Source: Streptomyces sp. NBC_00620
GTDB taxonomy: Bacteria; Actinomycetota; Actinomycetes; Streptomycetales; Streptomycetaceae
Direction: 5' to 3'
NCBI RefSeq assembly: GCF_026341825.1
Contig: NZ_JAPENY010000002.1
Span: forward strand, 2,141,001-2,205,000
Length of the DNA stretch: 64,000 nucleotides
A model generated the notes under the pieces. The model was given only the letters and a program-made list of their open reading frames with translations. It had not been told where the DNA came from and did not search any database. Numbering within the stretch: the stretch's first letter is position 1; every line of letters begins with the position of its first letter. The translations under genes were made by a program, and so were the position numbers. Below are positions 7,367 to 20,908 of the stretch, one piece after another.

Positions 7367-8140
7367 TCAGTTGTTCCAGCTCTCGTCGTACGGGTCGCGT
7401 GGGGCCGCGACCGGCTTGGCCTCGCCGACCTTGATGAAAGGGATGACACCGTCGTTCACCGGGTCCTTGGTCCGCTCGCTGGTGTAGGTACCGGTGACCT
7501 CGAGCCAGGAGTCGGGTTGCAGGACGGGGGGAATCCGTCCGGTCAGGCCGATCTTGACTGGTTGGGCGTCGGCGGCGCAGCAGTTGAGGGCCATGCGGAC
7601 GAGGTAGGGGGTCCCGTCGTGGTCCAGGGCGACGAAGCCGGTGACCTTGACCTGGCGGTCGCCGAGGGTGCGCCCGTGGTCGTAGGCTGCGCGGCCGGCG
7701 TAGTCGACCAGACTGAGCGGAATCGGGTCGCCGGCGGGCAGGGCGGCGTAGCCGAAGGGGGCTTGCAAGGCCGTACCGGTGCGCATCGCGCTGTAGGAGC
7801 CCAGGGCGGGTGGCGCGACCAGGATGAGGGCGAGAAGGGGGAGAACCAGGAGCCAGGCGATGCGGGGTTCGCGGTGGGAGTGGCCGTGTTCCTCGTCGTC
7901 ATGGTCCGGTTCGGGCGCGTGGCCGTGTTCCTCGTCGGCACGGTCCTTTTCGGGCGCGCGCCCCTGCCGCAGCTCGTACCACACGGTCGCGGCGGCGGTG
8001 ACGATCAGAACGACGCCGGCTCCCAGCAGCAACGGGCGCAACCCGGCCTTGACGTACCGCAGATAGAGGTCGCTGGAGCCGGCCTTGAGAACCGCCGCGC
8101 CGACGAGAAACAGGACCGCGGCCTGCGCCTGCCGGTTCAC
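7367..8140 (-). CDS. TIGR03943-family putative permease subunit with His-rich cytoplasmic loop
   Basis: A 257-residue protein whose GTG start (8140) overlaps the upstream permease stop in a GTGA, implying translational coupling. Two N-terminal membrane helices (about 5-20 and 35-52) are followed by a His/Asp/Glu-rich loop built from a duplicated 13-residue block (DEEHGH twice), a third helix (about 92-110) and an extracellular DUF1980-type domain containing the Cys pair LNCCAADAQP. Members of this family are paired with UPF0718 permeases (Bacillus ycgQ/ycgR), which are reported in zinc-responsive regulons. The His-rich loop and CC motif fit metal handling, but the transported ion is not established. 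Confidence 0.8.
   Translation of the reverse strand: MNRQAQAAVLFLVGAAVLKAGSSDLYLRYVKAGLRPLLLGAGVVLIVTAAATVWYELRQGRAPEKDRADEEHGHAPEPDHDDEEHGHSHREPRIAWLLVLPLLALILVAPPALGSYSAMRTGTALQAPFGYAALPAGDPIPLSLVDYAGRAAYDHGRTLGDRQVKVTGFVALDHDGTPYLVRMALNCCAADAQPVKIGLTGRIPPVLQPDSWLEVTGTYTSERTKDPVNDGVIPFIKVGEAKPVAAPRDPYDESWNN
7881..7958 (-). repeat. 39-bp direct duplication encoding the His-rich loop
   Basis: Two imperfect 39-bp copies, 7881-7919 and 7920-7958, each starting tggccgtgttcctcgtc on the plus strand. They encode two 13-residue blocks containing EEHGH, doubling the potential metal-binding loop of the TIGR03943 protein. Confidence 0.75.
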
Positions 8141-15456: not shown

Positions 15457-15495
15457 CTGCAAGAGATTTCAGGAACTTTCCGGTTCTTCTTGCAG
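15457..15495 (+). promoter_or_regulatory. Inverted CTGCAAG/CTTGCAG elements in the amylase promoter region
   Basis: CTGCAAG (15457-15463) and its inverse CTTGCAG (15489-15495) are separated by 25 bases, 38 bases before the amylase ATG. Similar CTGCAAG-type repeats occur in Streptomyces alpha-amylase and maltose-operon promoters controlled by the LacI-family repressor MalR/Reg1. The link to MalR is by analogy. Confidence 0.55.
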
Positions 15496-15533
15496 TGCAA
15501 CTCCCCACCCGCTGGGCCGCATTGGAGTCGCTC

Positions 15534-18494
15534 ATGAGACGTACATCCCCGTTCCCGCTCGTGGCGCTCGCGGCGGCGACCCTGCTGGTCGGAGGGATCC
15601 CGCCGGACGTGGGCTCCCCGCCCATGGGCAGGACGGCAGCCGAGGCGACGAACACCGCGACCGTCTTCTACTACACGAAGACCAAGAGCTGGCCGGCCAC
15701 CTATCTCCACTACGCACCGGACGGCGGCTCCTGGACCACCGTGCCCGGCGTGCAGATGGAGGCGGCCTGCACGGACTGGGTGAAGGAGACCGTCGACCTC
15801 GGCTCGGCCGCCGGCCTGCAGGCCACCTTCAACAACGGCAACGGCACCTGGGACAACAACGGCGGCGCCAACTACGCGCTGGGCACCGGCGACATCACCG
15901 TCAAGGACGGCGTGATCGCCCACAGCGACCCGTGCGCCGGCACCGATCCGGTCGAGGGCAACGAGGCGACCGTCTACTACTCGACGGCCACCTCCGGCTG
16001 GACCACCGCCAATATCCACTACGCGCCCACCGGCGGCTCATGGACGACGGCCCCCGGCGTCGGCATGGAGACGGCCTGCACGGGCTGGTGGAAAAAGACC
16101 CTCGACATCGGCACCGCCACCTCGCTGAAAGCCGCCTTCAACAACGGCAACGGCGTCTGGGACAACAACAACAGCGCCGACTACACCCTCCCCACCGGCA
16201 CCACGACCGTGCAGGACAGAACGGTCACCACGGCCGCCGAGGACCCGTGCGCCGCCGAGGAGCCGGACACCGAGGCACCGACCGCCCCGACCAAGGTCAC
16301 CGCGAGCGCTACCAACACCTCGATCGTGATTTCCTGGGAGGCGTCCACCGACAACACTGCGGTGACGAAGTATCAGGTCACGCGCACGGGCGGCACCAAG
16401 GGCACGGTCGTCACCGACGTGGGCTCAACGGTGTACTCCGACACGGGACTTGAGGAGCTGACCGGCTACACGTACACGGTGAAGGCCGTCGACGCGGCCG
16501 GCAACACCTCGCCCGCCTCCGCCGCGGCCACCGCGACGACCGGCGAGGAGGCACCCGAACCGGCCTCCGGCACCCCGCTGGGCACCGACCCGCGCAAGGA
16601 CCCGATCTACTTCGTCCTCACCGCCCGCTTCTACGACGGCGACAGCTCCAACAACCGCGGCGGCAGCCAGCACGTCAAGTCGGGGAACGCGGCCAACAAC
16701 GACCCCATGTTCCGCGGCGACTTCAAGGGCCTGGTCGACAAGCTCGACTACATCAAGGCGCTCGGCTTCTCGGCGGTCTGGGTCACACCGGTCGTCCTCA
16801 ACCGCTCGGACTACGACTACCACGGCTATCACGGCTACGACTTCTACAAGGTCGACCCGCGTCTGGAGTCCGCCGGCGCCTCCTACCAGGACCTGATCAA
16901 CGCGGCGCATGCCAAGGGCATGAAGATCTACCAGGACGTGGTCTACAACCACAGCTCCCGCTGGGGAGCCAAGGGCCTGTTCACCCCGACCGTCTACGGC
17001 GTCCGCGACTCGGAGTGGAGCTGGTACTACGACGAGAAGAACGAGGGCTTCGAGTACGACGGCCTGACGGTCGATCCCAAGTCCGGGAAGTCGTACTACA
17101 ACGGCGACCTGTGGTCGACCGCCGAGCCTTCTGGGAACACCTGCGTCAACTGGGGCAAGGCGACCGGCGGCAAGAGCTCCGAGGGCTACACGCTCTACAA
17201 CTGCCAGTGGCCCAGCCCCACTTCCGGCATGTTCCCGAAGGCGTACTACCACCAGTGCTGGATCGGGAACTGGGAGGGCGAGGACGCGCGCTCCTGCTGG
17301 CTGCACGAGGACCTGGCCGACTTCAACACCGAGAACACCGCCGTCCAGAACTACTTGATCGGCGCCTACGACAAGTACATCGACATGGGCGTCGACGGCT
17401 TCCGCGTCGACACCGCCGTACACATCCCGCGCGTCACCTGGAACCGCCGTTTCCTGCCCGCCATCTACGACCGGGTGACCCAGAAGTTCGGTACGACCGC
17501 CGCGCAGAACTTCTTCGTCTTCGGCGAGGTCGCCGCCTTCGTCAACGACAAGTGGAACCGCGGCTCGGTCAACCACTCCGCGCAGTTCTACACCTGGAAG
17601 GAACGCAAGGAGTACAGCGCCGACGACGAGACCGCGGCCATCGAGCAGTTCACCTACGAGAACAACCTCGGCACCGGCAACCAGCCGACGTCCACCAACG
17701 CCTTCCTGAGCGGCAACAGCTACCACACGCCGGACCGCAGCCAGTTCTCCGGAATGAACATCATCGACATGCGTATGCACATGAACTTCGGTGACGCGCA
17801 GAACGCCTACAACAACGGCAAGGACTCCGACGACTCCGTCAACGACGCCACGTACAACGTCGTCTACGTCGACAGCCACGACTACGGCCCCAACAAGTCG
17901 AGCACCCGCTACAGCGGCGGCACCGAGGCGTGGGCCGAGAACATGGCGCTGATGTGGACCTTCCGCGGTATCCCGACCCTCTACTACGGCTCGGAGACCG
18001 AGTTCCAGGCCGGCAAGCAGATCGACTGCGGTCCGACCTGCCCACTGGCGTCCACCGGCCGTGCCTACTACGGCGACCAGCTCGCCGGAACCGTCACGGC
18101 CTCCGAGTTCGGCAAGGCCGACACGGCGAGCGGCCAGGTCGCCACGACGCTGGCCCAGCCACTGGTCAAGCACCTCCAGCGGCTCAACCAGATCCGCCGG
18201 GCGATCCCCGCCCTGCAGATGGGCCAGTACTCCACCGACGGCATCAGCGGCTCGATGGCCTTCAAGCGCCGCTACACCAGCGGCTCGACGGACAGCTTCG
18301 CGCTCGTCACGGTCACCGGCGCCGCGACGTACACCGGCATCCCGAACGGCACCTACACGGACGCCGTCACCGGTGATGTGAAGACCGTCTCGAACGGCAC
18401 GCTGTCCGTGGCGGCTCCCGGCAAGGGCAACCTCCGGGTGTACGTACTGAACGGTCCCGGGAAGATCGGGAGCGACGGGCCGTACCTCAAGTAG
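15534..18494 (+). CDS. Secreted multidomain alpha-amylase (two CBM25-like modules, FnIII, GH13)
   Basis: A 986-residue exported enzyme. ATG 15534 gives a normal signal peptide (MRRT, hydrophobic VALAAATLLVG, cut near residue 35). Two homologous starch-binding modules follow (about 35-125 and 130-225), both with the repeated pattern T-V-x-Y-Y...IHYAPTGGSW, NNGNGVWDNN. A fibronectin type III domain lies at about 240-325, then the GH13 catalytic region from about 345. Catalytic residues are Asp626 (GFRVDTA), Glu665 (FGEVAA) and Asp783 (VDSHDYG; canonical NHD is here SHD). It degrades starch outside the cell to maltodextrins. Probably monocistronic, ending at a strong hairpin. Confidence 0.93.
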   Translation: MRRTSPFPLVALAAATLLVGGIPPDVGSPPMGRTAAEATNTATVFYYTKTKSWPATYLHYAPDGGSWTTVPGVQMEAACTDWVKETVDLGSAAGLQATFNNGNGTWDNNGGANYALGTGDITVKDGVIAHSDPCAGTDPVEGNEATVYYSTATSGWTTANIHYAPTGGSWTTAPGVGMETACTGWWKKTLDIGTATSLKAAFNNGNGVWDNNNSADYTLPTGTTTVQDRTVTTAAEDPCAAEEPDTEAPTAPTKVTASATNTSIVISWEASTDNTAVTKYQVTRTGGTKGTVVTDVGSTVYSDTGLEELTGYTYTVKAVDAAGNTSPASAAATATTGEEAPEPASGTPLGTDPRKDPIYFVLTARFYDGDSSNNRGGSQHVKSGNAANNDPMFRGDFKGLVDKLDYIKALGFSAVWVTPVVLNRSDYDYHGYHGYDFYKVDPRLESAGASYQDLINAAHAKGMKIYQDVVYNHSSRWGAKGLFTPTVYGVRDSEWSWYYDEKNEGFEYDGLTVDPKSGKSYYNGDLWSTAEPSGNTCVNWGKATGGKSSEGYTLYNCQWPSPTSGMFPKAYYHQCWIGNWEGEDARSCWLHEDLADFNTENTAVQNYLIGAYDKYIDMGVDGFRVDTAVHIPRVTWNRRFLPAIYDRVTQKFGTTAAQNFFVFGEVAAFVNDKWNRGSVNHSAQFYTWKERKEYSADDETAAIEQFTYENNLGTGNQPTSTNAFLSGNSYHTPDRSQFSGMNIIDMRMHMNFGDAQNAYNNGKDSDDSVNDATYNVVYVDSHDYGPNKSSTRYSGGTEAWAENMALMWTFRGIPTLYYGSETEFQAGKQIDCGPTCPLASTGRAYYGDQLAGTVTASEFGKADTASGQVATTLAQPLVKHLQRLNQIRRAIPALQMGQYSTDGISGSMAFKRRYTSGSTDSFALVTVTGAATYTGIPNGTYTDAVTGDVKTVSNGTLSVAAPGKGNLRVYVLNGPGKIGSDGPYLK

Positions 18495-18499
18495 CCCTG

Positions 18500-18530
18500 T
18501 GGGGCCCGGACTTGAAAGGTCCGGGCCCCA
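18500..18530. terminator. Strong hairpin terminator after the amylase gene
   Basis: A perfect 12-bp stem (TGGGGCCCGGAC 18500-18511, GTCCGGGCCCCA 18519-18530) with a 7-base loop, 6 bases after the amylase stop. It also serves the minus-strand remnant that ends at 18538. Confidence 0.85.
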
Positions 18531-18537
18531 CGCCCCG

Positions 18538-18621
18538 TCAGATCCGGTCCGCCGCGATCAGCAGATAGTGGAAGCTTCCTTCCTTGTACGCGGTCAGGAA
18601 CGCCTCCTCGAACCCGTGGCC
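18538..18621 (-). pseudogene. Remnant: last codons of a probable geranyl diphosphate 2-C-methyltransferase
   Basis: In the frame shifted by one base relative to the truncated encapsulin, about 27 codons run to a TGA at 18538-18540 and read [19 protein letters not shown] then LLIAADRI. This looks like the conserved C-terminus of a SAM-dependent methyltransferase. In family 2B encapsulin operons of Streptomyces the last gene is the geranyl diphosphate methyltransferase of 2-methylisoborneol synthesis, whose C-terminus has this style. No start or upstream domain remains. The identity is inferred from operon context and the tail sequence only. Confidence 0.5.
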
Positions 18622-19403
18622 ACCTCCGACTCGTACTCGCGCGGCCCCGGTTCGTAGTCCACGAACGTGCCAGGGAGGTCCGCCTCGCCCACATGCCCCG
18701 AGCTGAGCGCGATGTCGGCCTCGCCCGACCGGTTGCTCGGCCGGTGTCCGTCGGAGCCGATTCTCTCGACATGCGCCCGCAGCCCCTCGTACCGCTCCGC
18801 CACCGCCCGGTACGCCGCGTGCGGCAGCGCCAGGACCGTGGGGGCCGTCGCCGCGCGCGCCGTGAAGTCCCAGGTGCCGTCCGCGCCGGCGAGGACCTCA
18901 CCGCCGAACGTGTCACCGTCGGCCAGTAGACCGGTGATCGTCTCGTCCCCGTAGGGTCCCGCGCCGACCTGCTCCACCTTGCCGTGCACGATGAGGAAGA
19001 CATGGTCGGCCGGGCCGCCGGCCTCCACCACGAGCTGGCCGGGCTCGTACTCGCGCTGTACGAACTGCTCCGCCAGCACGCCCAGCGTGTCGCCGTCCGA
19101 GAACCCGCGCAGCAGCGGAAGTTCGGCGAGTTCCGCGGGGATGATCCTGACCCGCGCACCGGTCTTCACGAACGTCACCCGCCCGTCGCCGACCGCGTAC
19201 GACACCCGACGGTTCACGCGATACGTGCCGCGCGGCACGTCCACCCACGGGAGCATGCGCGTCAGCCACCGGGAGCTGATGCCCTGCATCTGGGGCTCGG
19301 ACTTGGTCGTCGTCGTCAGGTTCCGTGCCGCGGCGGCTCCGAGGCTCTGTTGCTCCCGCTCCTCGGCGCCCTCCGCGGGCGCCGTATCGGTCTCGACCGA
19401 CAT
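18594..19403 (-). pseudogene. Truncated family 2B encapsulin shell protein (EshA-like, cyclic-nucleotide-binding type)
   Basis: ATG 19403 with a purine-rich ribosome binding site opens a 269-codon frame. It contains the N-terminal arm ([32 protein letters not shown]) and the inserted cyclic-nucleotide-binding-like domain (about residues 80-215; [40 protein letters not shown]) of family 2B encapsulins. Full-length shell proteins are about 470 residues; here the sequence stops following the family soon after [14 protein letters not shown] (about residue 256) and ends [11 protein letters not shown]. The rest of the HK97-like fold (E-loop, A-domain) is missing, so no shell can form. The end coincides with a methyltransferase tail, indicating an internal operon deletion. 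Confidence 0.85.
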
Positions 19404-19666
19404 GGGTTCCTTCTCTCCTGTTGCGTGGGTGACAGAACGCATCCGGACTGTCACGCTCCGCGCCGACAGCTACCCGTGATCGGCCGCGACGAATGACGCC
19501 TTCGGACGGCGTGCGAAGCACGTCCCGCCACGAAGTGCCTCCGCACCACCGCCGATTCACTCGGATGCGCCTGGTTGGCGGTATCCGGTCGGTACCCGGG
19601 CGCCCCTCGCCGTGTTCAATCGCCAGTACCGCCGCGCGCTGACGGACTCGCCCACTAGGAGGCACC

Positions 19667-20908
19667 GTGATCGCAGTTCCCGAACCCGCGCTCACCGAAC
19701 GCGAACTGATCGAGCGCGCCGTGGAGTTACGACCCGCACTGCTCGAACGCCAGCCGGAGACCGAGCGGTTGACGCACTACCCCAAGGACACCCACGACGA
19801 CTTCCTGCGGGCCGGCTTCTACCGGGTGCTGCAACCGCGCCGGTACGGCGGCTACGAGTTCGGTCTGCCGACCTTCTACCGCGTGGTGACCGAGACCGCG
19901 CGCGGCTGCCCCTCCACCGGCTGGGCCCTGTCGCTCACCGCCGCCCACGTCCTCCAGGTCGCCGGCCTCTTCGACGAGAAGGCGCAGGACGAGATCTTCG
20001 GCGACCACGGCGAGTTCCGGGCCGCGTCCACGGTCGTGCCGATCGGCGTCGCCCGGCCCGACGGAGACGGCCACGTCGTACTCGACGGGACCTGGCCGTA
20101 CTCGTCCGGCGCGCCCTACTCCACGCACTACCTCGGCCAGACACTGCGCGCACCGGAGAAACCCGGCGACCCGCCAGGACCCTTCGTCCTGTTCCTGGCA
20201 CCGCGCGCGATCTGGACGGTGGTCGACGACTGGCACGGCGCCCTCGGCCTGCGCGGCAGCGGATCCAACAGCATCCGCATCGACGAGGGTCGCGTCCCCA
20301 CGTACTTCACCCGGGAGATGAGCCTGCTCGACCTGCCCGTCGAGGGCGGCACCCCCGGCTCGAAACTGCACGGCAACGCCATGTACGCGGGGCGCTCGCC
20401 GAGCTTCTACCACGGTGAGCTGGCCGCCATCATGATCGGCACCGCGTACGCGGCCGCCGACGAGTACGCCCGGATCATCGCCGAACGCCCGCTGATCGCG
20501 GACCCCACCCGCACCCGCTCCGAACTCCACGACTACCAACGGCATTTGGGAGAAGCGCTGGGCGCGATCCACACGGCCGAGGCGGCGCTGCTGCGCAACG
20601 CGGAGGACTGGATGGAGGTCTGCCGCCGCAATGTCTCGGGCGAGGCCCCGTTCACCAGCGCCGAGGACAACCGGCTCGCGCTCGTCTTCCTCACCGCCGG
20701 GCGGATGGCGTGGGACGTACTGCAGGGCATCCTCTTCCGCACGGCCGGTTCCCGGTACGCCCGCGACGGTGAGCGGATGCAGCGGTACTTCCGGGACGCG
20801 GCCACGTGCTGGACGCATGTCGGTCCCACCATGGCCGAGCCGCTGTACCGGCGGGTCGGCCGCGACCGCCTCGGCCTGCCCTCGGACGACATCCCGCTGC
20901 TGCCCTGA
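19667..20908 (+). CDS. Flavin-dependent monooxygenase, acyl-CoA dehydrogenase fold (HpaB/HsaA-type)
   Basis: A 413-residue protein; GTG start 5 bases after AGGAGG. The order of segments (N-terminal helices with RYGGYEFGLPTFY, a beta domain with GTWPYSSGAPYSTHY and HGALGLRGSGSNSI, C-terminal four-helix bundle) matches group D flavin monooxygenases such as HsaA, p-hydroxyphenylacetate 3-hydroxylase oxygenase and DszC. They use FMNH2 or FADH2 supplied by a separate reductase, which is not encoded nearby. The substrate is unknown; an aromatic ring or an amine is plausible. It is divergent from the broken encapsulin gene and followed by a 13-bp tandem repeat. Confidence 0.8.
   Translation: MIAVPEPALTERELIERAVELRPALLERQPETERLTHYPKDTHDDFLRAGFYRVLQPRRYGGYEFGLPTFYRVVTETARGCPSTGWALSLTAAHVLQVAGLFDEKAQDEIFGDHGEFRAASTVVPIGVARPDGDGHVVLDGTWPYSSGAPYSTHYLGQTLRAPEKPGDPPGPFVLFLAPRAIWTVVDDWHGALGLRGSGSNSIRIDEGRVPTYFTREMSLLDLPVEGGTPGSKLHGNAMYAGRSPSFYHGELAAIMIGTAYAAADEYARIIAERPLIADPTRTRSELHDYQRHLGEALGAIHTAEAALLRNAEDWMEVCRRNVSGEAPFTSAEDNRLALVFLTAGRMAWDVLQGILFRTAGSRYARDGERMQRYFRDAATCWTHVGPTMAEPLYRRVGRDRLGLPSDDIPLLP

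Follow-up and report, generated by a model that had tools for sequence, protein, structure and literature searches.

The 269-codon frame on the minus strand at positions 18594-19403 of the window (the whole 64,000-nt stretch of Streptomyces sp. NBC_00620 DNA analysed here), taken from the open-reading-frame list, is most probably a pseudogene, left without function by a deletion in an encapsulin operon for the earthy odorant 2-methylisoborneol (2-MIB); we put the probability of this reading at about 90%. The ancestral locus would have carried an operon with genes for a family 2B encapsulin shell, a 2-MIB synthase and a geranyl diphosphate methyltransferase. One deletion of about 2.7-2.8 kb would then have brought shell codon 258 in frame with the last 30 methyltransferase codons, and the further loss of 1 nt in a run of G would have moved the methyltransferase tail out of frame. 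The identity of the two pieces, their synteny with intact operons and the lesions shared by two strains are established at the level of sequence comparison, and the features of the region are collected in Table 1.

Residues 20-262 of the frame match positions 1-243 of the 450 in NF041163, the NCBIfam model of the family 2B encapsulin shell (319.6 bits, E = 3.9e-95). This score stays below the whole-protein cut-off of the model (400 bits), and the HK97 fold is incomplete, because nearly half of the shell is missing. A cyclic-nucleotide (cNMP)-binding domain inserted between the shell parts, as in family 2B, is present and matches Pfam PF00027; it is preceded by the N-terminal part and followed by the first residues of the HK97 part, where frame residues 220-262 match positions 5-47 of the 254 in Pfam PF19307 (SrpI-like). 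In family 2B shells this domain is described as inserted in the E-loop (PMC12407261). Three solved chains of 470-477 residues also align to the frame, 9bje at residues 13-263, 9bhu at 12-263 and 9bix at 2-262; their entries carry names such as 'Crp/Fnr family transcriptional regulator', and we read them as family 2B shells.

The piece that follows belongs to another family. It matches the very end of NF041943, the NCBIfam model of geranyl diphosphate 2-C-methyltransferase (positions 246-272 of 272, E = 7.2e-10), as well as the final 25 residues of PDB 4f84 (E = 2.7e-5) and 3vc1 (E = 1.5e-4). As similarity matches, both family assignments are far beyond chance, and both origins had been proposed in the sequence-only reading, that is, a family 2B shell for the 269-codon frame and a methyltransferase C-terminus for the tail. 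The 25-residue tail is matched in at least 230 of 392 Streptomyces genomes, its own genome counted.

Table 1 Features of the remnant and its surroundings (positions in the window)
Feature	Position	Strand	Description
Alpha-amylase gene with CBM25 and fn3 domains	15495..18494	+	Convergent; downstream anchor
G+C-rich hairpin	18499..18531		13-nt arms; separates the amylase gene from the remnant; without a T run
Methyltransferase-derived part	18538..18629	-	Last 30 codons and stop of a geranyl diphosphate 2-C-methyltransferase gene; NF041943
1-nt loss	18612..18614	-	Run of G, codon 264; common to G306
Large-deletion junction	18629..18630	-	Shell codon 258 fused in frame to a methyltransferase Ser codon
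Shell-derived part	18630..19403	-	Codons 1-258 of a family 2B encapsulin gene; NF041163; junction set against relatives
cNMP-binding domain	18789..19055	-	Residues 117-205; Pfam PF00027 cNMP_binding, E = 1.6e-14
Run of four GC units	18853..18860	-	Four in the window; one fewer in G306
Upstream region	19404..19666		Common to the remnant and the divergent gene; RBS-like AGGAGAGAAGGA before the ATG
Divergent neighbour gene	19667..20908	+	Acyl-CoA dehydrogenase C-terminal domain; syntenic anchor in intact relatives

Intact operons were found among the relatives of the shell, taken as the best 80 of 569 loci, from named genomes. Within these 80, 39 match both the 2-MIB-synthase-type cyclase and the methyltransferase of locus L037 nearby; they include two with a different gene order (L054, L065), one with partial methyltransferase matches only (L085) and one cut by a contig end (L113). 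A further 31 match neither enzyme, 1 matches the cyclase alone, and 9 have less than 3.5 kb of sequence behind the last shell. In L085 (Streptomyces sp. AV19), the partial matches, at 2392-2598 and 7585-7695, cover methyltransferase residues 8-76 and 2-42 and adjoin two divergent family 2B shells.

The order shell, 2-MIB synthase, methyltransferase, which had been expected for the ancestral operon, stands beside the divergent gene of the window in four relatives, L037 (Streptomyces sp. GESEQ-35), L038 (S. albicerus), L039 (S. scabichelini) and L043 (S. albiflavescens), without an internal stop. The L037 genes score above the cut-offs of their respective models, NF041163, NF041167 (encapsulin-cargo terpene cyclase) and NF041943. 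The remnant thus adjoins the same neighbour as the intact operons, which upholds the proposal of a deletion that removed the cyclase. The best NCBIfam model for this neighbour is the HsaA monooxygenase, below its cut-off. On the other side, the alpha-amylase gene also adjoins the methyltransferase gene in another genome, G040. The hairpin between the remnant and the amylase gene was not called by the terminator scan; palindromes resembling it were seen by eye behind the methyltransferase genes of L143 and L158. In the intact relatives L142, L143, L038 and L039 (the first two of which appear to be the L037 and L043 genomes), the two junction points are 2,711-2,804 nt apart, and since the intact operon lies beside the same divergent gene in four relatives, about 2.7-2.8 kb has been lost.

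Alignment with the relatives shows that the shell residues extend to E258 (PREYE), and that the following SEVATG (residues 259-264) is already encoded by methyltransferase codons, read in the frame of the shell, which places the true junction at 18629/18630. The sequence-only reading had the frame leaving the family soon after PGPREYE and the tail following in another frame; the tail itself stands, with the junction refined in this way. The methyltransferase part has 92 nt, compared with 93 in the intact relatives. One base is gone from the run of G, so that the tail is out of frame and reading stops at 18594-18596. As the large deletion is in frame, it is ruled out as the cause of the frame change, which needs the separate 1-nt loss, and the earlier statement that one deletion explains everything seen has to be given up. 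Reconstructed from the relatives, the microhomology at the junction is 2-3 nt, AG, extended to AGT should the ancestral codon have been TTG, and the ends would probably have been united by end joining at these bases; both this mechanism and the order of events are what we infer.

To place the lesions in the history of the species, 392 Streptomyces genomes, the window's own included, were searched with a 2,651-base query. One other genome of the same species, G306, is among the matches listed, with positions 1-2650 of the query covered at 98%, and the sample of the species is therefore two genomes. The junction and the 1-nt loss are common to the two strains and are surrounded by strain-specific substitutions. 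From this sharing we infer that both lesions are older than the split of the two strains, and the remnant would have been drifting since. In G306 there is in addition a 2-nt deletion, placed by the alignment at 18859-18860, which is a frameshift inside the cNMP-binding domain.

The rest of the window's genome, which is 98.5% complete, was searched for the missing parts. An intact paralogue of the family 2B shell is present in both strains elsewhere in the genome (G000:C2:251747-253108 in the window strain, covering NF041163 in full, positions 1-450, with 771 bits). Pfam PF19086 gives five matches in four open frames. One is a two-domain cyclase that scores 1153.7 bits with NF041168, just below the cut-off of 1200, and which we take to be a geosmin synthase; the others are an epi-isozizaene synthase and a 7-epi-alpha-eudesmol synthase, both above cut-off, and one frame with no family over cut-off. 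None of the PF19086 frames in this genome reaches the cut-off of NF041167, whereas the L037 synthase passes it; what most resembles that synthase here is the two-domain gene (E = 1.2e-6). No complete geranyl diphosphate methyltransferase was found there; the search returned the tail (model positions 247-272 of 272) and weak, sub-cut-off matches to other proteins. Apart from the remnant, neither strain has a shell matching that of L037 at more than 67%, or a complete geranyl diphosphate methyltransferase. The searches for synthase, shell and methyltransferase thus exclude an intact operon copy elsewhere in the window's genome, which the sequence-only reading had thought worth looking for. Judged by these family models, the window's genome contains no replacement methyltransferase or family-typed 2-MIB synthase, and the strain is predicted to have lost 2-MIB production.

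G306 has an extra cyclase (L164 5199-6125; G306:C1:8253199-8254125), 35% identical to the L037 2-MIB synthase. Its nearest model is NF041167, with 277.7 bits under a cut-off of 400, and it is distantly related to the encapsulin-cargo cyclases; neither the shell nor the methyltransferase of L037 has a match in the 11 kb around it. A counterpart was not found in the window's genome. The loss of every such cyclase is therefore limited to the window's genome.

We compared the substitutions in the remnant with those in other genes of the same two strains. Nonsynonymous and synonymous changes number 7 and 6 in the shell part, and 3 and 1 in the methyltransferase tail when it is read in the methyltransferase frame. 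For the intact family 2B paralogue the counts are 0 and 7 (0 and 6 over the first 263 codons), for the divergent neighbour gene 1 and 15, and for the amylase gene 13 and 24. By Fisher test, the shell part differs from the paralogue (p = 0.044) and from the neighbour gene (p = 0.0097), whereas between the remnant as a whole (10:7) and the amylase gene (13:24) there is no significant difference (p = 0.14). Of the seven amino-acid differences in the shell part, four (at sites 23, 58, 67 and 135; three on the window side and one on the G306 side) bring in a residue absent from 128 relatives, a set obtained from 148 by removing the window and G306 copies, matches shorter than about 200 residues and identical rows. 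Among the 391 differences in 22 control pairs of related shells, 46 are of this kind, a lower proportion than 4 of 7 (one-sided p = 0.006). Between species, a ratio of 7:6 alone is not unusual, as the window and L037 shells differ by 71:71 changes; pairwise dN/dS against other species is uninformative because the shell evolves fast in general. The substitution pattern thus shows signs of relaxation by some controls and not by others, and it is mainly the truncation, the frameshift and the unusual residues that argue for decay. The lesions are those of a pseudogene: truncation and 1-nt loss in both strains, and an extra 2-nt frameshift in one.

Among the alternatives, the one that survives best, although we consider it very unlikely, is that the fragment has been neofunctionalised, and is made and active as a free cNMP-binding protein, which perhaps sequesters cNMP or, via its N-terminal arm, poisons assembly of the shell encoded by the intact family 2B paralogue. 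The 258 shell codons of the window strain still form an open frame behind a good start site, and the retention of the upstream region, as implied from the letters alone, is supported, with an RBS-like site and a single difference in 263 nt between the strains; the promoter scan found no sigma-70 consensus upstream. The existence of an intact family 2B paralogue in both strains also counts in favour of this alternative, as do the mixed family 2B shells described for S. lydicus in PMC12407261. In an AlphaFold prediction of the fragment, with an alignment of 27 sequences, the mean pLDDT is 59.6, and the cNMP-binding domain is the part predicted with fair to high confidence: ten-residue blocks of residues 91-210 have means of 72-90, and ten-residue means of 70 or more are limited to residues 91-220. 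The fragment could therefore fold as a cNMP-binding domain with most of the HK97 part missing. Residues 13-74 and 221-269 are below a pLDDT of 50; what would be made, if anything, is an isolated cNMP-binding domain, with little predicted order at its ends and without a shell. Against a kept function stand the frameshift in the middle of the domain in G306, the novel residues and the other signs of relaxed constraint. For these reasons a kept free cNMP-binding protein was set aside as the main reading, and the free cyclic-nucleotide-binding fragment envisaged by the sequence-only reading is not borne out as a retained product.

Somewhat less probable again is a functional in-frame fusion of shell and methyltransferase, favoured by selection at first and disrupted only afterwards. 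In its favour, the large deletion joins the two genes in frame, and in G306 the methyltransferase tail is once more in the frame of the shell start, because the 1 nt and 2 nt lost there add up to 3; the open frame around shell start and tail has 307 codons, and the chimeric frame 287 residues. However, an in-frame junction has a one-in-three chance, such a fusion would have just the end of the methyltransferase and lack most of the HK97 part, and the stretch that links the two parts in G306, residues 184-262, is read in the wrong frame. In the deletion-scar reading, G306 would have lost its 2 nt after the strain split, and this would have restored the frame of the tail by chance.

Runs of G are often misread by 1 nt in sequencing. 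The least probable alternative, an operon intact in the organism and collapsed in the assembly, is nevertheless rejected, because the identical junction and 1-nt loss recur in G306 amid strain-specific substitutions, which makes an assembly error, a concern of the sequence-only reading, very unlikely, and because neither genome has a close shell or complete methyltransferase beyond the remnant, the window's genome has no close 2-MIB synthase, and the junction offers only 2-3 nt of homology.

The history of the operon before the deletion may have been different from that of its surroundings. In a tree of the neighbour gene the window groups with L043 (support 1.0), whereas in a tree of the shell part it groups with L037, L041, L044 and L046 (support 0.994; its placement next to L037 has a support of only 0.14). 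This conflict points to an exchange of the operon between lineages, and the operon was probably exchanged by recombination before the deletion took place.

Other arrangements were seen in relatives. In G040 (L158 10101-13498), only the last 25 residues of the neighbour gene are left and the shell gene lacks its 5' half, while the frames for shell residues 197-473, synthase and methyltransferase are open, so that the lesion is the mirror image of that in the window. In G022 (L159 9080-11450), the shell is missing altogether, and the conserved upstream region is joined to the synthase at about residue 9, so that the synthase may lack a start; the methyltransferase frame is open, and no neighbour gene was found in the 19 kb of sequence there. 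L041, L044, L046 and G123 (L144), of the same clade, have a whole shell and no synthase or methyltransferase match in the stretch behind it. In G006, at a locus not tied to that of the window, there is a shell and a methyltransferase, with no synthase match in the 16 kb of sequence there. Second, more distant sets of shell, synthase and methyltransferase were also noticed in genomes related to that of the window, at G251:C13:175081-178493, G123:C153:92498-95905 and G006:C8:333077-336801; the G251 operon at the window's locus is intact besides its distant set, and G161 too has an intact operon. Among the tail matches listed, two lie in an open frame of fewer than 281 codons, that of the window (119) and G339:C1:1556957 (198). 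The latter (L161 3957-4043) is an orphan methyltransferase tail, residues 260-288, with no shell or synthase match in the 9 kb around it, and is possibly another scar.

Taken together, the scar may belong to a natural series of deletions at one locus, in which lineages have independently dropped different modules of the operon and some have dropped or halved the shell while the frames for both enzymes stayed open, a tentative proposal that we hold to be rather doubtful. Synthase and methyltransferase are reported to be enough for 2-MIB production in E. coli (PMC10580876), and shell-less operons are therefore plausible 2-MIB producers. For terpene synthases in Streptomyces, gene transfer has been argued and the loss of redundant copies suggested (PMC6604706). 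If the series were true, the compartment would be dispensable and repeatedly selected against, and the odorant pathway either kept naked or lost. As a single case, the remnant is ordinary gene decay: a single deletion probably cost one species its 2-MIB production. The remnant also shows how a 269-codon 'hypothetical protein' can arise by deletion, for which an annotation as cNMP-binding regulator is unwarranted. More useful than the single case is the comparison set that these loci offer for the role of the family 2B shell in 2-MIB production: enzyme frames without a whole shell (G040, G022), a shell without adjacent enzymes (L041, L044, L046, G123), and neither in the species of the window.

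Among the titles and abstract openings listed in a literature search, none describes such an operon scar. The closest known systems are the family 2B operons with a 2-MIB-synthase-like terpene cyclase and a C-methyltransferase, described by Andreas and Giessen (2021, PMC8346489). The remnant is like these operons in its shell with an inserted cNMP-binding domain and in its methyltransferase tail, and its relatives have the same order of shell, cyclase and methyltransferase; it differs in lacking nearly half of the shell, and with it a complete HK97 fold, all of the cyclase and about 90% of the methyltransferase. With geranyl diphosphate 2-C-methyltransferase (NF041943; PDB 4f84 and 3vc1) it has the C-terminal 30 residues in common, whereas the rest of the enzyme is gone and the tail alone is left, out of the frame of the shell. 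The intact paralogue in the same genome is of the same family as the remnant and 58% identical to it over the shared part, and in contrast to the remnant it is intact and lies at another locus.
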